DNA of 64,000 nucleotides. Origin: Dissulfurispira thermophila (GTDB lineage: Bacteria > Nitrospirota > Thermodesulfovibrionia > Thermodesulfovibrionales > Dissulfurispiraceae). Shown piece after piece: positions 1 to 21,838 of this stretch (its first letter is position 1; every line of letters starts with the position of its first letter). The stretch covers positions 248,001 to 312,000 of the forward strand of contig NZ_AP022873.1 of the NCBI RefSeq assembly GCF_014701235.1, given 5' to 3'. The position numbers were made by a program, and so were the translations under genes. Under the pieces are notes generated by a model. The model made no database searches. It saw only the letters and a list, made by a program, of their open reading frames with translations, and was not told where the DNA came from.

Positions 1-98
1 GACCCTATCACGGCTTTGATGGATTCCCTATATTTGCGAGGGATATGGACATGACAGTAAACAGCCCGACATGGGATTTGATACGGAGGAGAAGATGA
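1..98 (+). CDS. nifD: Nitrogenase MoFe protein alpha chain, C-terminal end (partial)
   Basis: Only the last 32 codons are present, read in frame 3 and ending at the TGA at 96-98. The tail reads [17 protein letters not shown] followed by a short stretch ending LIRRRR. The GF-GFxxFARDMDM block is the conserved C-terminus of NifD, the alpha subunit that carries FeMo-co. The TGA overlaps the ATG of nifK at 95 (ATGA), the usual arrangement for two subunits of one complex made in equal amounts. The rest of nifD, and presumably nifH, lie upstream of the window. Confidence 0.9.
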
Positions 99-1603
99 AG
101 ATAATAGACCACAATGAGCTCTTTCAGAAACATGAATATCTTGAGCAGTTTGAAAGAAAAAGGGAGTTTGAAAAACCATGTTCTGCAGATGAGATAGAGA
201 AGGTCTCGGAGTGGACAAAGACAGAAGGATATAGAGAAAAGAATTTTGCCCGTCAGGCACTGACAATCAATCCAGCAAAGGCATGTCAGCCACTGGGGGC
301 TGTATTATGTGCATCTGGCTTTCAGAATACATTACCCTTTGTTCAGGGGTCGCAGGGGTGTGTGGCATATTTCAGGAGCCACCTGAGCAGGCATTTCAAG
401 GAGCCAGTTGCTGCTGTCTCTTCATCAATGACAGAGGATGCTGCAGTATTCGGCGGACTGAATAATATGATGGAGGGGCTGGAGAATGCCTATGCCCTTT
501 ATAAGCCGAAAATGATAGCTGTTTCCACCACATGCATGGCAGAGGTTATCGGTGATGATTTAAATGCCTTTATAAAAAAGGCAAAGGAGCAAGGTGCGAT
601 TCCTTCTGAACTACCGGTCCCTTTTGCCCATACACCCAGTTTTGTAGGCTCCCACATCACAGGCTACGATAACATGCTCAAAGGGATACTCAGTTATCTG
701 ACAGCAGGTGTGCACAGAAGGCCAAACAGCAGGATAAACATAATTCCAGGTTTTGACACATACACAGGAAATATAAGAGAGATAAAGAGATTGCTGAATT
801 TAATGAATGTTCAACATACAGTCCTTGCTGATATAAGTGATGTCATGGATTCACCGAATACAGGTGAATACAGGATGTATTTAGGAGGTACACCCCTTGA
901 CGAGGCAGTGGATTCCATAAACGCAATTGCAACAGTTGCGATGCAGAAGTATTCAATACTGAAGACAGGCGAATTTATAAAAGAGGCGTGGGGTCAGGAG
1001 TTTGTTGCTATGCCGATGCCTGTGGGTATATCAAATACAGACAGATTTCTTGAGACTATCTCTAAGGTTACAGGCAAGGCAATACCTGAGGAGATAGAAG
1101 ATGAAAGGGGCAGGGCAGTTGACGCAATGGTAGATTCCCACCCCTATGTTCATGGAAAGAGGTTTGCCCTTGTCGGAGACCCTGATCTGCTGCTTGCATT
1201 GATAAGCCTTCTCATGGAGATGGGAGGAATGCCAGTTCACATCATATGCACAAACGGCGATAGGAATTTTGAGGGAGAGGCATACGCACTACTTGGCAAG
1301 AGTCCATTCGGAATAGAAGGGAAGGTTTATATTGGCAAAGATATGTGGCATCTGAGGTCGTTACTCTTCACAGAGCCTGTTGACTTGCTTATTGGCAATT
1401 CCTATGCAAAGTTTCTCTGGAGGGATACAGGCACACCACTTGTAAGAATAGGTTTCCCGATCTTTGATAGGCACCACCTCCACAGGTATCCGATTATCGG
1501 CTATCAAGGAGTGATAAATCTTGTTAACTGGATAGTGAATACTGTGCTTGATGAAATGGACAGAAAGACGATTAATACAACAAGTTTTGATGTGATTAGA
1601 TAG
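95..1603 (+). CDS. nifK: Nitrogenase MoFe protein beta chain
   Basis: Beta subunit of dinitrogenase; with NifD it forms the alpha2-beta2 MoFe protein that reduces N2 in the cytoplasm. With the start at 95 the product is 502 residues. P-cluster cysteines are visible at C64 (KACQPLGA), C89 ([11 protein letters not shown]) and C147 ([11 protein letters not shown]), followed by the HTPSFVGSH block. This is the molybdenum type, not Vnf or Anf, judging by these blocks. An in-frame ATG at 71 would add eight residues, but the ATG at 95 has GGAGGAG at 86-92 and overlaps the nifD stop, so 95 is preferred. Followed after 13 bp by nifEN. Confidence 0.96.
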
Positions 1604-1616
1604 AAGAGAGGTTGAA

Positions 1617-4202
1617 ATGCTGACAGGCATAGACAGATTAATGCAAAGCAGTTGTGAACGGGAGAAGAAAGAAAAAATCTGCCGTTCAAGAGGAGGAGAG
1701 TCCTGTGCCTTTGACGGTGCAATGATAGTCCTCCAGCCCATTGCGGATACGGCGCATATCGTTCACGGTCCTATTTCTTGCTGCGGCAATTCATGGGAAG
1801 GCAGGGGCACACTGTCTTCAAAGGGCCGCCTCCACAGAATGGGTTTTACAACAGATATGACCGAGATGGATATCATCTACGGCTCTGAAAATAAGCTCTA
1901 TGATGCGATCTTGCGGGCTTATGAGTCGGTAAGACCGAAGGCGATATTTGTTCATGCAACCTGCGTAAGCGGTTTGATAGGAGAAGACATCGAGGCGGTC
2001 TGCAAAAAGGCTGAGACATTTCTCGGCATTCGGGTAATACCCGTGAATGCGCCGGGGTTTGTTGGCCCAAAGAATCTTGGCAACAGAATAGCTGGCGAGG
2101 TTTTGCTCGATTATGTGATAGGAACGGGCGAGCCTCCATTTACGACAGATTATGATATCAATCTTATAGGCGAATACAACATTGCTGGTGATTTATGGCT
2201 TGTAGAGCCATTACTGAAAGAGGCAGGTGTAAGGATTTTATCAAAAATTACAGGCGATTCTACATTCGAGGAGATAACTTATGCCCACAGGGCAAAGCTC
2301 AATGTTGTGGTATGCAGCCGCGCATTGATAAATATAGCAAGGGAGATGGAGAGGAGATATGGTATCCCTTACATTGAGGTCTCATTTTTCGGAAAGACAG
2401 AGATGTTGCAAGCCTTGAGGCTAATAGCCTTAAATTTCAAATCTCAAATTTCAAATCTCAAATTGGCGGATAAGATTGAAGAAATCATTATGAGGGAAGA
2501 AAAAAAGCTTGATGAAAAGTTAAAGGCATATAAACATCTAAAAGGCAAAAAGGCAGTGCTTTATACAGGCGGCGTGAAAAGCTGGTCATTCATCTCTGCC
2601 CTTATGGATCTGGGGATTGAGATTGTTGCAATCGGAACCAAAAAGAGCACTTTTGAGGATGAAGAGAAAATGAAAGAAATTTTAGGTGAAGATGCGCCAC
2701 TCGTTGAAGATGTAACTCCTAAAAATTTGTTAAGGCTCATAAAAGAAAGGAATGCAGATATATTAATTGCTGGAGGGAGAAATCAGTATCTTGCAATAAA
2801 GGAAGGCTTCCCATTTGTGGATGTAAATCAGGAGAGGCATATTCCATATGCAGGGTATGATGGACTGATAAATTTCGCTGAGCAGATAAGCAATAGCATG
2901 AGATTTTTTCAGGAGTCAGGAGACAGAAGTCAGAAGACAGAAATTAGAAAAAAAGAAAGTCTTAAGATTATAAATCATAAATCCGAAATCACAATCAATC
3001 CCCTGAAGCATTCTCAATCAATCGGTGCTGCCATTGCATTTCAGGGAATAGACAGGGCATTGCCCATTATTCATGGCGCACAGGGCTGCAGCTTTCTTGC
3101 AAAGGTCCTTCTGACAAAGCATTTCAGGGAGCCGATTGCACTCGCAAGCACAAAGCTTTTTACAGAAGATGTTGTCATGGGAAGCGAGGAGAACATAATT
3201 AAGGTTGTTCAGGAAATTGTTGAGAGGAATAATCCCGATGTAATTGGAATTCTCACATCAGGGTTAACAGAGGTTAAAGGTGATGATGTGACAAGTGCAA
3301 TGAAAGATTTAAGATTCAAAATTAAAGATTCAAAATGTCAAATTGTTCATATCTCTACCCCTGATTACGAAGGTGGGCTTGAAACAGGATATGCAAAGGC
3401 AGTGGAGGCAGTCATTAAGTTTATAGTCCATAGTCCACAGTCAGCAGTAAATAAAAAGACTATCGACTGTTTTATTAATGTCCTTGTCGGCTCTCATTTG
3501 ACACCCGCAGATTTTACAGAATTGAGGGAAATAGTTGAATCTTTCGGTTTAAAACCCATAATTCTCCCTGACCTTTCTGCGCTGGATGGAAGCAGAAAGG
3601 GGTTTTCTGCACTTGCTATTGGCGGCACGACAACTGAAGAAATAAGGGCAATGGGTTCATCTGATTTCACAATTGCCATAGGTGCAAGCATGGAGAGTGC
3701 TGCAATGATCTTAAAAGAAAGATTTGGCATTGAATACAGGGTATTTGAAAGCATATCGGGGCTTAAGGATGCAGATATGTTTATGGAGACGCTTTCGATG
3801 TTGAGTGGTAAGCCTATTGCCAAAAAATACGAAAGGCAGAGGAGAATCTTGATTGATGGCATGAGAGATGCCCATTTTTATTATGGCAATAAAAAAATAT
3901 ATGTTGCACTTGAGCCTGATCTTACCGTGCAGACAATGCATTGGCTTGATGAAATGGGTGCAGTGGTTGAAATTGTAGATGTGAATTCAAATGATCTATT
4001 TTCTATACAAGGCCATTTTGACCTCTTAATCTCTAACTCTCATGCAGAAGATACCGCAAAGAGACTTGGTGTGCCTCTGTATCAGATGGGATTTCCTGTG
4101 TATAAGGTTTTGGGGAACAATCACAAGGTTACCATTGGATACAGTGGAACGCTTTCACTTATCAATGAAGTTGCAAATAAATTATTGGAGGTGCATCAAT
4201 GA
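1617..4202 (+). CDS. nifEN: Fused nitrogenase cofactor scaffold protein NifE-NifN
   Basis: 861 residues that combine NifE (about 1-430) and NifN (about 460-861), normally separate subunits of the scaffold on which the NifB product matures to FeMo-co. NifE cysteines are visible at C30 (GESCAFDGA), C55/C56 (ISCCGNSW) and C116 (ATCVSGLIGED). The NifN half opens with PLKHSQSIGAA and carries the GAQGC cysteine at about 491. The joining segment, about residues 432-460, is polar and unconserved and is encoded by two short-repeat blocks (2911-2946 and 2964-2992). Three more repeat blocks lie inside conserved regions (2433-2464, 3305-3345, 3424-3446). A frame error is unlikely because one open frame spans the whole gene. 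The start has GAGAGG about 6 nt upstream. Confidence 0.95.
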   Translation: MLTGIDRLMQSSCEREKKEKICRSRGGESCAFDGAMIVLQPIADTAHIVHGPISCCGNSWEGRGTLSSKGRLHRMGFTTDMTEMDIIYGSENKLYDAILRAYESVRPKAIFVHATCVSGLIGEDIEAVCKKAETFLGIRVIPVNAPGFVGPKNLGNRIAGEVLLDYVIGTGEPPFTTDYDINLIGEYNIAGDLWLVEPLLKEAGVRILSKITGDSTFEEITYAHRAKLNVVVCSRALINIAREMERRYGIPYIEVSFFGKTEMLQALRLIALNFKSQISNLKLADKIEEIIMREEKKLDEKLKAYKHLKGKKAVLYTGGVKSWSFISALMDLGIEIVAIGTKKSTFEDEEKMKEILGEDAPLVEDVTPKNLLRLIKERNADILIAGGRNQYLAIKEGFPFVDVNQERHIPYAGYDGLINFAEQISNSMRFFQESGDRSQKTEIRKKESLKIINHKSEITINPLKHSQSIGAAIAFQGIDRALPIIHGAQGCSFLAKVLLTKHFREPIALASTKLFTEDVVMGSEENIIKVVQEIVERNNPDVIGILTSGLTEVKGDDVTSAMKDLRFKIKDSKCQIVHISTPDYEGGLETGYAKAVEAVIKFIVHSPQSAVNKKTIDCFINVLVGSHLTPADFTELREIVESFGLKPIILPDLSALDGSRKGFSALAIGGTTTEEIRAMGSSDFTIAIGASMESAAMILKERFGIEYRVFESISGLKDADMFMETLSMLSGKPIAKKYERQRRILIDGMRDAHFYYGNKKIYVALEPDLTVQTMHWLDEMGAVVEIVDVNSNDLFSIQGHFDLLISNSHAEDTAKRLGVPLYQMGFPVYKVLGNNHKVTIGYSGTLSLINEVANKLLEVHQ
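2433..2464 (+). repeat. In-frame 14-bp tandem repeat in the NifE half
   Basis: AATTTCAAATCTCA occurs twice in tandem followed by AATT. Each 14-mer is itself two related heptamers. It is read through as NFKSQISNLK between the conserved part of NifE and its helical C-terminus. The same motif, in the opposite orientation, sits inside dxr at 29631-29668. Confidence 0.85.
2911..2992 (+). repeat. Short-repeat blocks forming the NifE-NifN linker
   Basis: First block 2911-2946: repeats of the GTCAGAAGACAGAA type. Second block 2964-2992: repeats of the ATAAATCATAAATC type. Together they encode nearly the entire linker between the NifE and NifN domains. The first block belongs to the same family as the in-frame arrays in lpxB (37707-37763) and waaA (40848-40879). 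Confidence 0.8.
3305..3446 (+). repeat. Two in-frame short-repeat blocks in the NifN half
   Basis: At 3305-3345 the unit is of the AAGATTCAAAATTA type, read as LRFKIKDSKCQIV. At 3424-3446 ATAGTCC repeats (ATAGTCCATAGTCCACAGTC) are read as IVHSPQS. Both lie in loops between conserved NifN strands, so the frame is kept and the product only gains a few residues. Confidence 0.7.
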
Positions 4203-4591
4203 AAGTAGCGTTTGCAACAACAGATGGTGTCAATGTGGATGAGCATTTCGGCAGGTCAGGCATGTTCGCCATATACGAAGTTACAAGAGATGGCTACAGG
4301 TTTGTTGAAATGAGGAAGTTTGCTGATGGAAGGGATGTGATGATAGAGGATACAAAGGGAATGAGTGAAGTGCATGAAGACAGGGTTCAAAGAAAGGTAG
4401 ATAATCTGTGTGATTGCAAGATTATATATCTAACCGAGATAGGAGGACCTTCTGCAGCAAGGCTTGTGAGAAAGGGCATAATGCCTGTAAAGGTGAAGGA
4501 GATAGTATCTATTGAGGAGTCGTTGCAGAGACTTTTAGAGACAATAAAGAAATCGCCACCACCGTGGCTTAAAAAGGCACTAAACGATTAA
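4199..4591 (+). CDS. nifX: NifX-type FeMo-cofactor carrier protein
   Basis: 130-residue protein of the NifX/NafY/NifB C-terminal family (dinitrogenase iron-molybdenum cofactor biosynthesis domain). Members bind NifB-co or the VK cluster and pass it to or from NifEN. The opening MKVAFATTDGVNVDEHFG contains the family signature DxHFG, and IGGPSAARLVRKGI is the second conserved block. The ATG overlaps the nifEN stop (ATGA, 4199-4202), so it is translationally coupled. Because the nifB of this cluster lacks the NifX-like C-terminal domain, this gene supplies that domain separately. It is followed by a large hairpin. Confidence 0.92.
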   Translation: MKVAFATTDGVNVDEHFGRSGMFAIYEVTRDGYRFVEMRKFADGRDVMIEDTKGMSEVHEDRVQRKVDNLCDCKIIYLTEIGGPSAARLVRKGIMPVKVKEIVSIEESLQRLLETIKKSPPPWLKKALND

Positions 4592-4603
4592 CAATGGTTA
4601 AAC

Positions 4604-4644
4604 AGGTAAGACATAGTATTTTCGCTCAAATACATGTCTTACCT
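4604..4644 (+). other. Strong imperfect hairpin between nifX and nifI1
   Basis: AGGTAAGACAT (4604-4614) pairs exactly with ATGTCTTACCT (4634-4644). After a single bulged A at 4615, GTATTT (4616-4621) pairs with AAATAC (4628-4633), leaving a six-base loop. That gives 17 base pairs. No T-run follows, so a simple intrinsic terminator is not well supported. An mRNA processing or stability element separating the nifDK-EN-X message from nifI1I2B is possible, or an operator palindrome. Confidence 0.8.
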
Positions 4645-4682
4645 ATTATTATGAAAAGCCAAATTAATAGGAGGAAATTATT

Positions 4683-5000
4683 ATGAAGATGATCAGGGCA
4701 TTTATCAGACCAGAAAAGGAACAAGAGGTTGTTCTTGCATTGGAGGGCGCTGGTTTTCCGTCCCTTACCAAGATGCCTGTTTTTGGAAGGGGAAAGCAGA
4801 AGGGGCTTCAGGTTGGACCTGTGCATTATGATGAGCTTCCAAAGACACTTATTATGACTGTTGTGGATAATGAGGATGTGGATAAGGTCGTAAAAATTAT
4901 CCAGGACAAGGCAAGGACGGGCTTTATTGGAGATGGAAAGATATTTATAAGTCTTGTTGAGGCTGCATATACTGTGAGGACAGGGGAGGAAGGATTATGA
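4683..5000 (+). CDS. nifI1: NifI1, PII-like nitrogenase switch-off regulator
   Basis: 105-residue PII-family protein. NifI1 and NifI2 form a complex that inhibits dinitrogenase by binding NifDK in response to 2-oxoglutarate and nucleotide levels; this is known from methanogens and several anaerobic bacteria. The start MKMIRAFIRPEKE and the C-terminal ARTGFIGDGKIF and VRTGEEG blocks are PII signatures. The T-loop region lacks the uridylylated-tyrosine context of GlnB. AGGAGG sits about 7 nt upstream. The start of nifI2 overlaps its stop. In most genomes the pair sits between nifH and nifD; here it follows nifX. Confidence 0.93.
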   Translation: MKMIRAFIRPEKEQEVVLALEGAGFPSLTKMPVFGRGKQKGLQVGPVHYDELPKTLIMTVVDNEDVDKVVKIIQDKARTGFIGDGKIFISLVEAAYTVRTGEEGL

Positions 5001-5413
5001 AAGAGATTACGGCAATTATCAGGAGGGATAAGCTCCCAGAGACAAAGCGGGTGCTTGAGGAACTGGGCTATCCGTCTCTTACTATCCAGAGTGTTGAAGG
5101 CAGGGGAAAGCAGAGGGGCGCTATGTGCGCTGAAATGGACTCAGAGATGCCTGACAGTTTTTGCACCGCAGTTAAGCTGACTCCCACACCATCAGCATAC
5201 GCCCTTGAGCATACTTTGCCTAAGGTTGCGCTCTATGTGCCAAAAAGGATGCTCACAATAGTTGTGCCTGACGATGTAGTCACAAAGATCGTGAAATCGA
5301 TCATTAAAGCAAATCAGACAGGCAAGCACGGTGATGGGAAGATTTTCGTTTCGCCCATTGAAGGTGCTGTGAGGGTGAGGACAGGGGAGAAGAACGGAGA
5401 AGCAATAGCATGA
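4997..5413 (+). CDS. nifI2: NifI2, PII-like nitrogenase switch-off regulator
   Basis: 138-residue PII-like partner of NifI1. Visible features are the N-terminal MKEITAIIRRDKL strand, a lengthened T-loop region (about residues 40-75, including the proline-rich LTPTPSAYALEHTLP), and the [15 protein letters not shown] block near the C-terminus. The longer T-loop is what separates NifI2 from NifI1. The start overlaps the nifI1 stop (ATGA, 4997-5000) and the stop overlaps the nifB start at 5410, so the three are probably translated as one coupled unit. Confidence 0.93.
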   Translation: MKEITAIIRRDKLPETKRVLEELGYPSLTIQSVEGRGKQRGAMCAEMDSEMPDSFCTAVKLTPTPSAYALEHTLPKVALYVPKRMLTIVVPDDVVTKIVKSIIKANQTGKHGDGKIFVSPIEGAVRVRTGEKNGEAIA

Positions 5414-6285
5414 TGATAAAGAATATTATTAAAACTCACCCTTGTTTTTCCGAAGAGGCGCATCACAAGTTCGGCAGGATACATCTTCCTGTTGCGCCTG
5501 CGTGCAATATACAGTGCAGATACTGCATAAGGAAATACGATTGCGCCAATGAATCGAGGCCGGGAATCACGAGCAAGGTTTTGACTCCCGAAGAAGCTCT
5601 GGAGAGGGTAAGGGCGCTTGTGGAGAGAAACGAAAGGCTGAGCGTTGTTGGAATTGCAGGGCCTGGAGACCCTCTGGCAAACGATACAACTTTCGAGACA
5701 CTAAGGGCAATTAACAGGGAATTCCCCGAGCTTATTCTATGCGTTTCCACAAATGGCCTCTATCTCTCAGATAGGCTTGAAGACCTTGTGAGATCAGGTG
5801 TTAGAAGTCTTACTATCACAATTAATGCTGTGATGCCAGAAACAGCAGAGAAGATATATTCGTGGGTCTCATACAGAGGGCGTAAATACACAGGAAGAGA
5901 CGCGGCAGAGTGCCTCTTGTGCAATCAGTGGAGAGGACTCAGAAACGCCATTGATGCAGGGCTTATTGTAAAGGTCAACAGCGTCTTAATCCCAGGCATA
6001 AACGATGAAGAAATTCCTTTGATTGCATGGCTTGCTGGAGTTAGAGGTGCAGATTTGATGAATGTAATTCCTTTGATTCCACAAGCAGAATTCAGGAATT
6101 TACAGAGACCTACGCATGATGAGATTTCAACCATGAGAAATATATGCAGAAACTACATGCCTCAGATGACACACTGCAGGCAGTGCAGGGCTGATGCATG
6201 TGGGATTTTGGGAGAAGATAAGGACATGGAACTTGAAATGTTAAACGCAAGGATTGGAGAGGAATATTGTGAGATGGTTAACTAA
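5410..6285 (+). CDS. nifB: NifB, radical SAM FeMo-cofactor precursor synthase (short form)
   Basis: Radical S-adenosylmethionine enzyme that fuses two 4Fe-4S clusters and inserts a carbide to make NifB-co. The CxxxCxxC triad is C32, C36 and C39 (ACNIQCRYC). The N-terminal HPCF motif and the C-terminal HCRQCRADACG motif, which ligate the two precursor clusters, are both present. At 291 residues it lacks the NifX-like C-terminal domain found in longer proteobacterial NifB, a form common in archaea and anaerobes; nifX at 4199 may compensate. ATG at 5410 overlaps the nifI2 stop; a second ATG follows at 5413. Confidence 0.95.
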   Translation: MMIKNIIKTHPCFSEEAHHKFGRIHLPVAPACNIQCRYCIRKYDCANESRPGITSKVLTPEEALERVRALVERNERLSVVGIAGPGDPLANDTTFETLRAINREFPELILCVSTNGLYLSDRLEDLVRSGVRSLTITINAVMPETAEKIYSWVSYRGRKYTGRDAAECLLCNQWRGLRNAIDAGLIVKVNSVLIPGINDEEIPLIAWLAGVRGADLMNVIPLIPQAEFRNLQRPTHDEISTMRNICRNYMPQMTHCRQCRADACGILGEDKDMELEMLNARIGEEYCEMVN

Positions 6286-12787: not shown

Positions 12788-12834
12788 GGCTGCGAAGGGT
12801 CTCATACCTTTGAGATCCTTCGCAGCCTATTTTT
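12788..12834 (+). terminator. Rho-independent terminator after the haem chemoreceptor
   Basis: GGCTGCGAAGGGTCTCA (12788-12804) pairs with TGAGATCCTTCGCAGCC (12811-12827) with one G-T pair and a six-base loop, followed by TATTTTT. Confidence 0.85.
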
Positions 12835-12837
12835 AAA

Positions 12838-13278
12838 TGACAGACACTGCTCAAAGTCTTTAAAAAGTGTTGGTTCAAGTGTATATGAGGAGACTATAAA
12901 TGTATTACTCAATAAGTATCCGCTAATAGGTGGTGACGGATTCAAGATAGATGTGGTTGCAAGTGCGGAGTTTAAAGCCTTTTCGCAGCATCTGTCATCT
13001 AATTGATAACTTAATTAAGCTGATTTTAGCTGACAGACACTGCTCAAAGTCTTTAAAAAGTGTTGGTTCAAGTGCATATGAGGAGACTATAAATGTATTA
13101 CTCAACAACTATCCACTAATAGGTGGTGACGGATTCAAGATAGATGTAGTTGCAAGTGCGGAGTTTAAAGCCTTTTCGCAGCATCTGCCATCTAATTGAT
13201 AACTTAATTAAGCTGATTTTAGATGACAGACACTGCTCAAAGTCTTTAAAAAGTGTTTGTTGCAAGTGCATATGAGGT
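12838..13278 (+). repeat. 193-bp tandem repeat containing a protein C-terminal fragment
   Basis: Two full copies (12838-13030 and 13031-13223) and a truncated third (13224-13278). The two full copies differ at about six positions. Each carries a 55-codon open stretch, ending LxSN or LPSN then TGA, which includes YEETINVLLN and GGDGFKIDVVASAEFKAF. It looks like the 3' end of a decayed gene duplicated in tandem. The third copy continues into the IS21 target site. A further inverted copy of the truncated unit is at 33445-33509. Confidence 0.85.
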
Positions 13279-13397
13279 AATTGGGTGTAGATTGTCAACA
13301 CATTTGACCCCTTTTATGCAAATAAAATTGACCCCCTTTTGCCGTTAAAAACGGCACTATTTGATTTCTTAACTTTTCTGCCCTTCTTCCAATCCAT

Positions 13398-14147
13398 TCA
13401 ATTTGCCTTCTTCAATTTGTTCTTCAGTCTGTAGCTTTCTCCACTTATATAGAATATGCTTGCATGATGCACAACTCTGTCTATTATGGCTGAGGCTACA
13501 ACAGGGTCTTCAAATACCTTTCCCCATTCGTCAAAGTTGTAGTTGCTTGTAAGGATTATTGAGCCTTTTTCGTATCTCATTGAGATGAGTTGAAACAGGA
13601 GATTTGCCTGCTCTCTCGTTATCGGCATGTAGCCCAGTTCATCTATTATCAGCAGGTGGAGCCTTGAGTAAAAGAGGAGTCTTTCTACAAGGTTTCCCTG
13701 TCTCTTTGAGAGCATGAGGTCTTCTATGAGTCCCTGGGCTGTCATAAAGAGCACCCTGAGCCTTGCTGTGCATGCCTTTATGGCAAGCCCTACGGAGAGA
13801 TGGGTTTTGCCTACCCCGGGAGGACCGAGGAATATCACATTTGCCTTTTGAGCTATGAATTCAAGGCTGCTGAGCTTTATTACTTCTTTGTCTCTGAGGC
13901 CCGGCTGGAAGCTGAAGTCAAATTCCTCAATGGTCTTTATGTAGGGAAGTCTGCTCTTTGCCATCTTTGCCTTTATTGAGCTTTCTGTCTTCCTCTTTAC
14001 CTCTGCCTCAAGTAACAGGGCAAGGTATTCTTCATATCTGAGGTTGCTCTTTGATGCCCTCTCTGAGAGGTCTCTGTAGGCAGTTATCATGCCTTTGAGC
14101 TTCAATGACCTCATGTGACTCTCTATCTGTCTGTTCAGCTCTGTCAT
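13398..14147 (-). CDS. istB: IstB-like ATP-binding transposition helper
   Basis: 249-residue AAA+ ATPase of IS21 elements that assists IstA in target selection and strand transfer. Walker A GPPGVGKTH lies about residue 106, and LLIIDELGYMPI is the Walker B region, followed by ILTSNYNFDEWGKVF, the sensor region typical of IstB. The start ATGA overlaps the istA stop. Full length for the family and no internal stop, so probably active. Confidence 0.95.
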   Translation of the reverse strand: MTELNRQIESHMRSLKLKGMITAYRDLSERASKSNLRYEEYLALLLEAEVKRKTESSIKAKMAKSRLPYIKTIEEFDFSFQPGLRDKEVIKLSSLEFIAQKANVIFLGPPGVGKTHLSVGLAIKACTARLRVLFMTAQGLIEDLMLSKRQGNLVERLLFYSRLHLLIIDELGYMPITREQANLLFQLISMRYEKGSIILTSNYNFDEWGKVFEDPVVASAIIDRVVHHASIFYISGESYRLKNKLKKAN

Positions 14148-15637
14148 GCCAGAACCTCCTTTTCCATAACCCTGTATGCTGAAAGGGGTCTCGTTATGTT
14201 AATGGAGCGTGCAATACAGGGGTTGTTTATGTTCTCTATTAGAGGTTCTCCAGGGGTCTTGCTTTTAAGAAGCCTCTTTATGCTGTTTTTGTGGTATGAG
14301 CCGCATTCAATGCACTCCTTCATGGCGGCTGTTATGTCCTCGGCAGTGTAAATCTCTGTGAGTTTCAGTATCTCTTCTATATGCCAGTACATGTTGGCAC
14401 TGACTGTCTTCTTTAAGCCTTCTATGAAGACCTCTCCCTGCTGTTTGAATGCCTCTTTGAATCTTTTAAGAGTTTCAGACCTGTATGCCCCTTTCCTCTC
14501 CCTATATTCCCTGTTGAGCTGTTCATGTTCTGGATGTACAGGCCTTTTGTGCCTGTCACTTACCCTTATGTCATGTTCTGCTATGATACTGCCATCCATT
14601 GAATAGACCTTAAGGGTCTTTCCAAAAAGGGTCTCTATCTTTACCTGCCTGAGACAATGCTTCATGGGCACAGGGTATAATGCACCAGCCCAGCTTATGT
14701 AGCCGTCATTCGTTACGCTCCGTATCTCCTTCGGGAAGATTTCAGCAGGCTCTACCTCAGGTATCGGTCTTAGAAGAGGTTTTTCATCACGCATGAACCT
14801 CTCTTCAGGGCTCTCTCCGAGGTCACTGTGTGTCCTTTTATTGTATCTTTCTGTAAAGTCATACAGAAGCCCATCAAACCGTGCAATGCCTTCTACCTCA
14901 AGTCCCTTGAGAAGATGCTCCTGAATGTAATAAAAGGGCCTCTCTACCTTCCCCTTTGTCCTTGCCCGATAGGGTCTGCACGGGACTGTATCAATACCAT
15001 AAAGTCCGCAGAACCTCAAAAACTCATCGTTATACCGAATAACACCGTTGTTGTTGTGAGCAATGACCATCTGTCTGGGATTGTCTATAACAATCTCTTC
15101 AGCAATGCCCCCAAAATACTCTATTGCACTCGCTATCGCCCTGATTATATCCGCTGTGGTGATGCTTAAGGAACTGCAATAATATTTCTTCCTGCTGTAG
15201 CTTAAGATTATCTCATGGATGTAGACCTTTACAGGTCTGCCATTTACAGGAAGCATCCATTCCTTCCAGTCATACTGCATCTGTTTGCCAGTGGAGGTCT
15301 CTACCCTCGTTGTTGCTAGGGTCTTGACCCGTTCTCCTTCCCTTATCCCTGACAGATAACGATGCACAGAGCAAAGAGAGCCTCCGTAGCCCTGTTCCTT
15401 GAGCTCATTGTATATCCTCGTGCCAATGAAGCCCTTTTTGAGCATCTCCTTTATCACTTCCTCATAAGGGTCAAGTAGCCTTTCATACTGCCTTGCTTTG
15501 AATTGCGGAGGTTCATCCTTCCTCAGATACTTCCTCACCGTGTTCCTCGATAGCTTCAACTGCCTCGCTATCCCCTTAATGGTCTCACCCTTCTGCCTTA
15601 ATACCCTTACCTGCTGCCACTTATACATGCTTATCAC
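14144..15637 (-). CDS. istA: IS21-family transposase IstA
   Basis: 497-residue DDE transposase. An N-terminal helix-turn-helix (GETIKGIARQLKLSRNTVRK, about residues 17-36) binds the element ends, and the central rve/RNase H-like domain carries the acidic triad. YDWKEWMLP, EEIVIDNPRQMV and KGKVERPFYYIQEHLLKG fit the D-D-E positions. It is full length. Located just inside the right end of the element, it is read leftward and followed by istB. Confidence 0.95.
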   Translation of the reverse strand: MISMYKWQQVRVLRQKGETIKGIARQLKLSRNTVRKYLRKDEPPQFKARQYERLLDPYEEVIKEMLKKGFIGTRIYNELKEQGYGGSLCSVHRYLSGIREGERVKTLATTRVETSTGKQMQYDWKEWMLPVNGRPVKVYIHEIILSYSRKKYYCSSLSITTADIIRAIASAIEYFGGIAEEIVIDNPRQMVIAHNNNGVIRYNDEFLRFCGLYGIDTVPCRPYRARTKGKVERPFYYIQEHLLKGLEVEGIARFDGLLYDFTERYNKRTHSDLGESPEERFMRDEKPLLRPIPEVEPAEIFPKEIRSVTNDGYISWAGALYPVPMKHCLRQVKIETLFGKTLKVYSMDGSIIAEHDIRVSDRHKRPVHPEHEQLNREYRERKGAYRSETLKRFKEAFKQQGEVFIEGLKKTVSANMYWHIEEILKLTEIYTAEDITAAMKECIECGSYHKNSIKRLLKSKTPGEPLIENINNPCIARSINITRPLSAYRVMEKEVLA

Positions 15638-15738
15638 CCCTTCTTCTCCTTTCCCTGTTTATTTGAAAGGAGATTATAGTATTGCAGGGGGTCATTTTTA
15701 TATGCCGATCAGGGGTCAATTGTATTTTACGATCTACA

Positions 15739-15896: not shown

Positions 15897-15926
15897 TACA
15901 AAATTGTAGCAATCTACAAAAATGTA
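15897..15926 (+). repeat. Double palindrome TACAAAATTGTA / TACAAAAATGTA, copy 1
   Basis: TACAAAATTGTA (15897-15908) and TACAAAAATGTA (15915-15926), six bases apart. The same pair in the same order recurs at 18778-18810. Here it lies 47 bp upstream of a sigma-54-like promoter, so a regulator-binding role is possible, but the second copy has no promoter behind it. Confidence 0.7.
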
Positions 15927-15972
15927 TTATCTCCTACCATTAAATTTCCTTGAAAATCAATGATATAGGCTC

Positions 15973-15988
15973 TGGCATGTTTTTAGCA
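15973..15988 (+). promoter_or_regulatory. Putative sigma-54 promoter of the amtB-glnK operon
   Basis: TGGCATGTTTTTAGCA has the -24 GG and -12 GC elements separated by exactly 10 bp and agrees well with the TGGCAC-N5-TTGCA consensus. It precedes the small HTH gene at 16007, the porin, amtB and glnK. Sigma-54 control of amtB-glnK operons is well established. Confidence 0.7.
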
Positions 15989-16006
15989 TAAACCATATTC
16001 AGTGAA

Positions 16007-16189
16007 TTGGATATGGATTCTTTAAAGAACAAAATCAACGGGATTGAAAGACAAGAGATAATCAATGCCCTCAAAGAATGCAACTGGATTATGGCGAGGG
16101 CAGCAAGGAAGCTCGGCATAACTGAGAGGATGATCGGGTACAAGATCAAAAAATATGGAATCAGAAAGGAGGATGTGAATAAACAGTGA
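16007..16189 (+). CDS. Stand-alone Fis/NifA-type helix-turn-helix protein
   Basis: At most 60 residues: TTG start at 16007, or ATG at 16013 giving 58. The bulk is an HTH_8 (Fis-type) domain: RQEIINALKECNWIMARAAR, then KLGITERMIGYKIKKYGI. This matches the C-terminal DNA-binding domain of NifA-type enhancer-binding proteins, yet the GAF and AAA+ domains are absent and nothing upstream encodes them. It sits 7-25 bp after the expected transcription start of the sigma-54 promoter, with no clear Shine-Dalgarno. It may compete with or modulate a full enhancer-binding protein, or be the remnant of one. Confidence 0.7.
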   Translation: MDMDSLKNKINGIERQEIINALKECNWIMARAARKLGITERMIGYKIKKYGIRKEDVNKQ

Positions 16190-16236
16190 GCAGTAAAGAT
16201 GAGATTTTCTGTAATTTAAAATTCGGAGGTGTTGTG

Positions 16237-17055
16237 ATGAAGAAAATAAGGGTTTTAGTTTTGTCAATGGTTTTGGTGATCAGCTTTTCTGTCAGCAGTG
16301 TTTATGCTGAAGATAAAGTGACAGGCAGTGCATCTGTTGGTGTGTTCAATAGGTATATATTCAGGGGCTATGAGATAGGCTCTCACAGCGTTGTTATGCA
16401 GCCTTCTCTAAATGTTTCTTACAAAGGCTTTTCTGCAACCCTGTGGAGTAATATTGACAGCAATGAACATTCAACACAGTCCTTTGTGCCTGACAAGGAA
16501 GGACACAAGAGCTTTAATGAGACAGACTTGACATTGAGCTATACTTATTCTATTGACAAACTCAGTCTCACAGCGGGTTATATCTACTATGCAATGAAAT
16601 ACAATAATCCCCCAGGCGATACAGAGGAATTGTTTGTGAGTGCAAGCTATGACACATTGTTGAAACCCACGCTGTCCATATACAGAGACATAACATCATA
16701 CCCGGGGACTTATTTTAACTTTTCACTGTCGCATTCATTGCCGGTTTATAAGGATATGACACTCGATTTAGGCGCATCAGCCGGGTATTTTGTGGGCAGC
16801 GATGACTACTGGAAGACTTATGAATCATCAACAGGCGATTATACAGGCAAAAAATACAGCGCCTTTCATGATGGTATGGTGAAGGCTGGCTTTACAATTC
16901 CAATAGCGAAAAATCTGCTGATACAGCCTATTGCACAATACTGGTTCCCTCTTTCGAGCAAGGCAAAAAAGACAGTGGATGGAAATTCCTATAACCATAA
17001 TGGAAAACTGGATGATACCTTTGTGACAGGTATAAGTCTGACATTCAACTTTTAA
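16237..17055 (+). CDS. TorF-family putative outer-membrane porin
   Basis: 272 residues from the ATG at 16237. The longer open frame from 16186 is rejected because GGAGGTG at about 16226 fits the later start. The signal peptide is residues 1-22 (MKKIRVLVLSMVLVISFSV, cut after VYA). The mature part opens with GSASVGVFNRYIFRGYEIG, the signature of the TorF/CHP02001 beta-barrel family, and ends in a phenylalanine (LTFNF), as outer-membrane barrels do. It lies between the HTH gene and amtB and is likely a nitrogen-regulated outer-membrane channel. The substrate is unknown. Confidence 0.82.
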   Translation: MKKIRVLVLSMVLVISFSVSSVYAEDKVTGSASVGVFNRYIFRGYEIGSHSVVMQPSLNVSYKGFSATLWSNIDSNEHSTQSFVPDKEGHKSFNETDLTLSYTYSIDKLSLTAGYIYYAMKYNNPPGDTEELFVSASYDTLLKPTLSIYRDITSYPGTYFNFSLSHSLPVYKDMTLDLGASAGYFVGSDDYWKTYESSTGDYTGKKYSAFHDGMVKAGFTIPIAKNLLIQPIAQYWFPLSSKAKKTVDGNSYNHNGKLDDTFVTGISLTFNF

Positions 17056-17067
17056 CAGGAGGCAACT

Positions 17068-18773
<1,706 letters not shown>

Positions 18774-18777
18774 TTTT

Positions 18778-18810
18778 CCTACAAAATTGTAGCTCCTACA
18801 AAAATGTAGG
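18778..18810 (+). repeat. Double palindrome TACAAAATTGTA / TACAAAAATGTA, copy 2
   Basis: CCTACAAAATTGTAG followed by CTCCTACAAAAATGTAGG. Same order and orientation as copy 1 at 15897-15926. It begins 5 bp after the glnK stop and may act as a weak hairpin, but no T-run follows. Confidence 0.7.
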
Positions 18811-18835
18811 AAATTAGAAGTACCTGTTTTGATGA

Positions 18836-19150
18836 TATACCATTGGATACGATGATTCCCTCGATGCCTTCGGTGTTCACGGAATTGGCGGAATCATAGG
18901 CACACTTGCTACAGGGCTTTTTGCACAGAAGGCAATAAATCCGTCAGGTGCTGATGGATTGTTTTTTGGAAATCCAAGACTATTTATTACTCAATTAATA
19001 GCCGTGGCGATAACTATTGTCTATTCATTCATCGTGACTGCGGTTATATTGAAAGTGCTCGACAAGACTGTTGGGCTGAGGGTTGACGATGAGTCAGAGG
19101 TTGTTGGTCTTGATATATCACAGCATGGGGAGAGCGGATATAGCTTGTAG
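18836..19150 (+). pseudogene. C-terminal fragment of a second amtB
   Basis: About 104 codons in frame with the TAG at 19148-19150. It reads GYDDSLDAFGVHGIGGIIG, then helices, then VGLRVDDESEVVGLDISQHG, which aligns with the last quarter of AmtB at 17068. The frame is closed by a TGA at 18833 and there is no start codon in the right place, so the N-terminal three quarters are gone. The longest ATG-initiated remnant starts at 18959. It lies between glnK and the amidotransferase gene, suggesting that a second amtB once preceded the glnB gene at 20069. Confidence 0.88.
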
Positions 19151-19269: not shown

Positions 19270-19992
19270 ATGTCTATTGTAATCTGTAAAAACATATCAT
19301 CAGAAGGACCCGGTACCATAGAAGATTTTCTTAAAACAAAAGAAATTCCTTATATGATTGTTGATTTGTCAAAGGGAGATGAGATTTTTGATACAGGAGT
19401 CTTTGACACCCTCATAATGATGGGCGGTCCTATGAGTGTTAATGAAGACGACATCTACCCATATATAAAAAAAGAGGAAGAGATGACCCGAGAGTTCATT
19501 ACTCAAAATAAAAGGGTTTTAGGTATCTGTCTTGGTGCACAGATAATAGCAAAGGCTTTGGGCTCAAGGGTTTATAAAGGCAGTCAAAAGGAGATAGGCT
19601 GGTATGATATAGAGCTTACATCTGAAGGAATTGCTGACCCTGTAATGAGGAAACTCGCAGTGCATCCTCATGTTGGGGATTTGTGGAAGAGATTCAAGGT
19701 ATTTCACTGGCACGGAGAGACCTTTGATATTCCTAAAGGGGGTGTAAGGCTTGCCAGCTCAGAGCTTTTCCCCAATCAGGCATTTAGGTATGGCAAGAAT
19801 GCCTATGCCTTTCAATTTCATATTGAAGTAACAAGAGATATGATATATGATTGGTTAAAAGACGAGGATATTGACCACGATAAGTTGAAGGCAGAGACAG
19901 AGAAATTCTATGAGGTCTATTATGGAAGGGCATGGAATTTCTATGAGGCATTTTTAAGTCAGGATAAGGTTGAGGTTAAGGTTAAGAATTAA
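19270..19992 (+). CDS. Class I glutamine amidotransferase-like protein
   Basis: 240 residues of the GMP-synthase-like glutamine amidotransferase family. The triad is visible: C87 in LGICLGAQ, and H184 and E186 in FQFHIEV. IGWYDIEL and FHWHGETFDIP are characteristic of stand-alone members, some of which hydrolyse glutamine or gamma-glutamyl compounds. Its place between a relic amtB, glnB and glnA suggests a role in glutamine or ammonia handling. The last residues (KVEVKVKN) are encoded by a GGTTGAGGTTAAGG repeat array. No good Shine-Dalgarno was seen. Confidence 0.85.
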   Translation: MSIVICKNISSEGPGTIEDFLKTKEIPYMIVDLSKGDEIFDTGVFDTLIMMGGPMSVNEDDIYPYIKKEEEMTREFITQNKRVLGICLGAQIIAKALGSRVYKGSQKEIGWYDIELTSEGIADPVMRKLAVHPHVGDLWKRFKVFHWHGETFDIPKGGVRLASSELFPNQAFRYGKNAYAFQFHIEVTRDMIYDWLKDEDIDHDKLKAETEKFYEVYYGRAWNFYEAFLSQDKVEVKVKN

Positions 19993-20047
19993 AAAACTTT
20001 GAATAATTCGAGGTTTAAAATCTTAACCTCAGCCTTAACCTTAACCT
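19968..20047 (+). repeat. Facing GGTTAAG repeat arrays after the amidotransferase gene
   Basis: GGTTGAGGTTAAGGTTAAG at the 3' end of the coding sequence faces CTTAACCTCAGCCTTAACC before glnB. The arms are complementary over most of their length and could form a hairpin in the transcript. Related array at 40119-40150. Confidence 0.7.
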
Positions 20048-20065
20048 ATAACGAGTAGGAGGTGA

Positions 20066-20407
<342 letters not shown>

Positions 20408-20425
20408 AAACAAAGGAGGAAAAGC

Positions 20426-21838
20426 ATGACACCAAAGGATGTAATTAAAATGGCTCAGGAAAACAAGGCGGTAATGGTAAATTTCAAGTTCCTTGATTTT
20501 CCAGGAATCTGGCAGCATTTTGCAGTGCCGATAGCAGAATTGAAAGAGGAGATATTTGAGGAAGGACTCGGCTTTGACGGCTCATCCATAAGGGGATGGC
20601 AGGCAATTCATACATCTGATATGCTGATAATCCCTGACCCCACAACGGCATTTATGGATCCATTTATGGAGTATCCAACAATAAGCCTGATATGCAATGT
20701 TGTAGACCCGATTACAAAGGAGTTTTATTCAAGGGATCCAAGATATATTGCACAAAAGGCAGAGGCATATCTTAAATCAACAGGCATAGGGGATACAGCA
20801 TATTTTGGTCCTGAGGCAGAGTTTTTTATCTTTGACGGCATCAGGTTTGACCAGAATGCACACAGCGGATATTATTTTATTGATTCTGTAGAGGGCATCT
20901 GGAACTCAGGTCGTGAAGAAAATCCCAATCTTGGCTACAAGCCAAGACACAAAGAAGGTTATTTCCCTGTGCCTCCAACAGATAGTCTGGTAAATCTCAG
21001 AACAGAGATGGTTATGGAGATGCAGAAAGTAGGTATTTATGTTGAGAGAGAGCATCATGAGGTTGCAACTGCGGGTCAGGCAGAGATAGATATGAGGTTC
21101 GATTCCCTCGTCAGGATGTCTGACAAGAACATGCTCTTCAAATATATAATCAAAAATGTTGCAAGGAGGCATGGTAAGACTGTGACATTCATGCCCAAGC
21201 CATTATTCGGAGACAATGGTTCAGGAATGCACTGCCATCAGAGCATCTGGAAGGGTGGGAAGCCTCTCTTTGCAGGTAATGGCTATGCAGGCCTGAGCGA
21301 ACTCGCTCTATATTATATTGGCGGCATATTAAAGCATGCAAAGGCACTTGCAGCAATCACAAACCCTACTACTAATTCATATAAGAGACTTACCCCGGGC
21401 TTTGAGGCACCTGTAAATCTTGCATACTCAGCAAGAAACCGTTCTGCATCCATAAGGATACCGACTTATTCGGCAAGCCCCAAGGCAAAGAGGATAGAGG
21501 TAAGATTCCCTGATCCATCATGCAACACATACCTTGCTTTCTCAGCTATGCTGATGGCGGGATTAGATGGCATAGAAAATAAGATACACCCGGGTGAGCC
21601 TCTTGATAAAGATATTTACGAACTCGGTCCTGAGGAACTTGCATCTGTTCCTACAATGCCTGGAAGTCTTGAGGAGGCACTTGATCACCTCGAAGAGGAC
21701 CATGAATTTTTGATGAAGGGTAATGTATTTACAGAAGATGCTATCGAGACATGGATAAACTATAAGAGGACAAGGGAAGTGGATGCCTTGAGATTGAGGC
21801 CGCATCCATACGAGTTTTTCCTGTATTACGATATTTAA
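20426..21838 (+). CDS. glnA: Glutamine synthetase, type I
   Basis: 470-residue dodecameric GS that makes glutamine from glutamate, ammonia and ATP. Visible signatures: [10 protein letters not shown] near 48, [10 protein letters not shown], the ATP-binding region [16 protein letters not shown], and [17 protein letters not shown]. Tyr398 in DIYELGPEE is the adenylylation site, so this is the GSI-beta subtype controlled by GlnE. Preceded by AAAGGAGGAAAA. It works with the PII protein just upstream and the ammonium transporter upstream of that to assimilate fixed or imported ammonium. Confidence 0.97.

Follow-up and report, generated by a model that had tools for sequence, protein, structure and literature searches.

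The restraint of NifA is commonly attributed to protein–protein signals (NifL, PII), and its canonical upstream activator sequence is TGT-N10-ACA. HgtR (GSU3364) of Geobacter sulfurreducens is reported to resemble the DNA-binding portion of RpoN activators. It is described as a repressor of central metabolism (PMC7726332), and its reported targets are gltA, atpG and nuoA. VnfA1 and VnfA3 of Azotobacter vinelandii are paralogous NifA-type bEBPs with similar DNA-binding domains and the same targets (PMC9542535). HTH_8 domains, NifA, Fis and full-length NifA-type paralogues with common targets are already known, the last from the same work (PMC9542535); a conserved DNA-binding-only NifA paralogue heading a NifA/sigma-54-type operon was not found described in the open-access literature searched.

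The window analysed here is a 64 000-nucleotide stretch of the genome of Dissulfurispira thermophila, which consists of one contig of 2.37 Mb. In this window the sequence-only reading had marked 15973–16189, an interval that comprises a sigma-54 box and a small gene, as encoding a Fis/HTH_8 protein of about 58 residues that resembles the C-terminal domain of NifA, comes first in a sigma-54 operon that also contains porin, amtB and glnK genes, and lacks an AAA+ domain. As regards gene content and order these claims were all borne out, and the features of the locus are as follows.

15897–15908 and 15915–15926, no strand assigned: paired enhancer dyads TACAAAATTGTA-N6-TACAAAAATGTA (dyad search)
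15955–15967, no strand assigned: IHF-like site AATCAANNNNATA, which differs from WATCAANNNNTTR at one position and lies about 18 bp before the box
15973–15988, plus strand: sigma-54 promoter TGGCATGTTTTTAGCA, a −24/−12 GG-N10-GC box (box search)
16013–16189, plus strand: stand-alone NifA-type HTH_8 protein, 58 amino acids (open reading frame, domain search, homologues)
16222–17055, plus strand: outer-membrane protein of porin-like type (its one match, to Gcw_chp, is weak and below the cut-off)
17068–18414, plus strand: ammonium transporter amtB (family match)
18417 (or 18435)–18773, plus strand: PII signal protein glnK (family match)
18780–18808, no strand assigned: second dyad pair, N5 spacing, before the amtB2 remnant (dyad search)
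18843–19150, plus strand: C-terminal remnant of a second amtB, which is intact here in relatives
19270–21838, plus strand: GATase-like gene, glnK2 and glnA, often downstream in relatives (family matches)

The small gene begins 40 bp after the first base of the sigma-54 box (15973) and is followed on the same strand by the porin-like gene, amtB and glnK. Beyond what had been noted before, the analysis added the paired palindromes at 15897–15926, the IHF-like site, a nif cluster on the left of the window and a full nifA at another place in the genome. The nif cluster (71–6285) contains nifK, a fused nifEN, a nifX-like gene, nifI1, nifI2 and a nifB that is without the C-terminal part of the family model; nifH lies just to the left of the window. 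Between this cluster and the operon is an IS21-type element (13297–15726) with IstB (13398–14147) and transposase (14144–15637) genes on the minus strand; its inverted ends are imperfect and 41 nt long, and its insertion point lies ∼170 bp before the enhancer dyads. Beside it, at 12831–13261, is a 193-nt tandem direct repeat that comprises two complete copies with 96% identity and the first 45 nt of a third. Downstream of the operon, the second amtB (18780–19150) has decayed to its C-terminal remnant, yet its enhancer dyads remain intact. The two glnK copies (18435–18773 and 20069–20407) are identical over the first ∼120 nt and then diverge (78% overall), which looks like recent gene conversion.

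The protein encoded at 16013–16189 (MDSLKNKINGIERQEIINALKECNWIMARAARKLGITERMIGYKIKKYGIRKEDVNKQ; ATG start, or 60 amino acids from an alternative TTG at 16007) is essentially one HTH_8 (Fis-type) domain and nothing else. Residues 11–48 matched Pfam HTH_8 (PF02954) with 47.4 bits against a gathering score of 22, and the best NCBIfam match was to the model end of NifA (positions 490–530 of 534, 38.6 bits, 5.5e-10), far below the whole-model cut-off of the NifA equivalog TIGR01817 (528.85 bits). With only 58 residues, it has neither a GAFTGA-bearing AAA+ domain nor an N-terminal sensor domain. Both are present in the full NifA of the same genome (L137:3146–4690, minus strand; TIGR01817, 595 bits against the same cut-off), to the C-terminus of which the small protein is 49% identical.

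A sigma-54 box (at least 12.5 bits, at most 110 nt before the start codon) was found just upstream of 51 of 64 homologues of the small gene, compared with 0.16% of shuffled upstream regions, the shuffling here and below preserving base composition only. The enhancer unit is an ACA-N4-TGT dyad, the best form of which is TACAAnnTTGTA, and the two dyads are centred at fixed positions, 52 and 70 bp before the box. Of the 51 boxed upstream regions, 44 had one dyad or more and 31 had a pair (shuffle means 2.3 and 0.005, respectively), and when up to three mismatches are allowed, no TACAAnnTTGTA pair with N6 spacing other than 15897–15926 exists in the genome. The canonical TGT-N10-ACA sites were ruled out as the enriched unit, which is ACA-N4-TGT and is also kept in the diverged Nitrospirota families (L345–L351); in these families the two dyads are ∼29–31 bp apart instead of 18 bp. 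In 19 of the 51 regions an IHF-like motif is again found 18 bp before the box (shuffle mean 0.6), and its agreement with the consensus makes 15955–15967 a putative IHF site.

Sites for the small protein only were considered and rejected for the dyads, which are present where the small gene is absent. In Thermodesulfovibrio-like genomes (family f10) the dyads precede a porin–amtB–glnK operon, in several cases followed by nifA, without the small gene, and a sigma-54 box was recognized in most of these promoters, in some of them weakly. The same layout was found in 12 promoters without the small gene, and a comparison of operons with and without it revealed no promoter site peculiar to the former; therefore, the window promoter bears no DNA mark of a special role. 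In the window's genome, nifH is preceded by two degenerate dyads, lying ∼21 bp further upstream, and a strong sigma-54 box. A single dyad is located 23 nt before the start of nifA, over a sigma-70-like −35 element, and is kept in 15 of 21 upstream regions read, including those of relatives without the small gene (G006, G072, G081 and G090), suggesting autorepression by NifA. Because the same promoter is found in relatives in which the small gene is missing, and because nifH and nifA have similar palindromes in front of them, the TACAAnnTTGTA dyads are, judging from this distribution, most likely NifA's own sites.

Starting from the gene, its conservation, its promoter and dyads, the fold shared with NifA and most of the recognition helix, we propose, with a probability of about one half, that the small protein is a NifA-induced DNA-binding-only paralogue that acts on NifA sites and damps the nitrogen response. 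When nitrogen is limiting, NifA would bind the paired TACAAnnTTGTA dyads and drive sigma-54 transcription of the operon, of which the small protein would be the first translated product. It should be unable to activate because the GAF and AAA+ parts are missing; by occupying the same dyads it would displace NifA and lower the output of the operon. In trans it might also lower the activity of other dyad promoters, namely that of nifH and, in relatives, those of amtB2 and others, and it would perhaps also bind the lone dyad that covers the promoter of nifA. The sequence-only reading had already raised competition for enhancer sites and a feedback loop, and this idea fits the shared enhancer dyads, the near-identical recognition helix and the apparently common regulon.

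The recognition helix, which the sequence-only reading had suggested comparing with that of the genome's full NifA, reads TERMIGYK in the small protein and TPRQIGYK in NifA and thus agrees except at two positions. These differences (E for P/S/A and M for Q) are nearly fixed in each group and probably face the DNA. Since the two positions are consistently unlike those of NifA, the specificity or affinity of the small protein may differ. It might be induced by NifA and sigma-54 and yet mainly repress (or activate) sigma-70 promoters with dyad-like or altered sites, for example that of nifA itself, and so bring genes beyond the reach of NifA into the nitrogen response. The near-fixation of the two changes suggests such a specificity of its own, the nifA dyad overlies a −35 region, and its paralogues stand first in other operons (porin with amino-acid permease, GATase–glnA and a PII-like gene). 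We nevertheless regard this alternative as unlikely, if a serious one: the nifA dyad of relatives without the small gene fits plain NifA autoregulation, and no site specific to the small protein was found among the promoters compared. The E also occurs in the full NifA of the f10 genomes, which have the same dyads, and the M in the full NifA of one other genome (G056).

An AlphaFold model of the small protein (pLDDT 89.5) contains helices only, from residue 2 onwards, and superposes on the DNA-binding domains of the sigma-54 activators 2m8g, 4l5e and 4fth and also on Fis (TMq about 0.78), the E-values of these matches being modest, as expected for 58 residues. The Fis-like fold, the nearly invariant spacing between dyads, IHF-like motif and box, and the fact that the protein is encoded by the activated operon itself would also suit a positive accessory factor, which, by sitting on one dyad or half-site or by Fis-like bending, would aid the assembly or looping of NifA in a positive feedback. 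We consider this doubtful, as the same layout exists in promoters without the small gene and the protein has neither the N-terminal part of Fis nor an AAA+ contact surface. The first helix of the model is long (residues 2–22) and could serve as an interface through which the small protein pairs with the DNA-binding domain of NifA, its close paralogue, and poisons or retunes the hexamer; bEBP hexamers, however, assemble mainly through the AAA+ domain, and such mixed oligomers appear improbable.

In the order, 100 genomes were compared, among them that of the window, and 56 have free-standing homologues of the small gene; these are mostly 55–85% identical, with open frames mostly of 58–136 amino acids, and usually stand first in a porin–amtB–glnK operon. 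The gene order around them is conserved across the families of the order, and relatives carry the same small gene at the place before amtB, where no full enhancer-binding protein was found. The start codon and the sigma-54 box are retained in most homologues, and dN/dS values against orthologues were 0.03–0.14 over 51 codons, where computable, which indicates purifying selection. A truncated pseudogene or an untranslated leader, to which the shortness of the gene and the weak or unclear Shine–Dalgarno sequence of the window copy (clear in most orthologues) might point, is thus highly improbable in view of the orthologues, these dN/dS values, the retained start codon and box, and a tree that agrees with one origin. 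The small gene is not a product of chance because purifying selection, the box in 51 of 64 homologues and the conserved gene order coincide.

In the tree, built from 46 columns and with few supported forks, the small proteins and the NifA domains fall on opposite sides of one change, which, like the alignment, is consistent with one old origin of the small gene beside the NifA DNA-binding domain. Within the phylum, members also occur in other orders of the class and, in diverged form, in two further families; named records with close homologues are nearly all metagenome genomes of Thermodesulfovibrionia or other Nitrospirota, and no homologue was found on the plasmids searched. In one relative (L061) a homologue directly precedes a KdpA-like potassium-transport gene; this label, like that of the permease above, was read from the sequence and not from a family search. 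The small gene tends to occur together with nifA: among the 100 genomes, 51 have both the small gene and nifA, five the small gene only (all draft genomes), 28 nifA only and 16 neither (p = 0.001, with kinship ignored). The small gene is dispensable, since 28 relatives have NifA without it, several of them also with the dyads. As a tentative reading, judged slightly less likely than not, the DNA-binding domain of NifA may have been duplicated once in this Nitrospirota class to give a self-induced competitor that heads nitrogen and other operons and has diverged in the two further families.

Little experimental work has so far been carried out on nitrogen regulation in Thermodesulfovibrionia, for which the TACAAnnTTGTA dyad pair provides a candidate NifA site across the class. 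If the proposed brake is real, sigma-54 promoters would have a simple feedback device that needs one gene only and could perhaps be transferred to tune nif expression. Here NifA seems to face a decoy that is encoded in its own operon and corresponds to its DNA-binding end.

Among known systems, HgtR differs in its reported targets, gltA, atpG and nuoA. Fis is likewise a small HTH_8 protein (a nucleoid protein) with the same core fold; the small protein is only 24% identical to it, has 58 residues without the Fis N-terminal region before the helix core, and is encoded in a NifA/sigma-54-type nitrogen operon. The DNA-binding domains of NtrC1 and NtrC4 (4l5e, 3e7l and 4fth) and the related 2m8g superpose on the model at 0.6–1.7 Å, but these were excised from full activators, whereas the small protein is the product of a free-standing gene. 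VnfA1 and VnfA3 are both full-length activators, in contrast to the DNA-binding-only small protein. The C-terminal domain of NifA (TIGR01817) itself has the same HTH_8 fold and nearly the same recognition helix, and a NifA-type promoter precedes the small gene; the small protein differs from NifA in having no GAF or AAA+ domain, in carrying E and M where NifA has P/S/A and Q, and in forming a gene lineage of its own.
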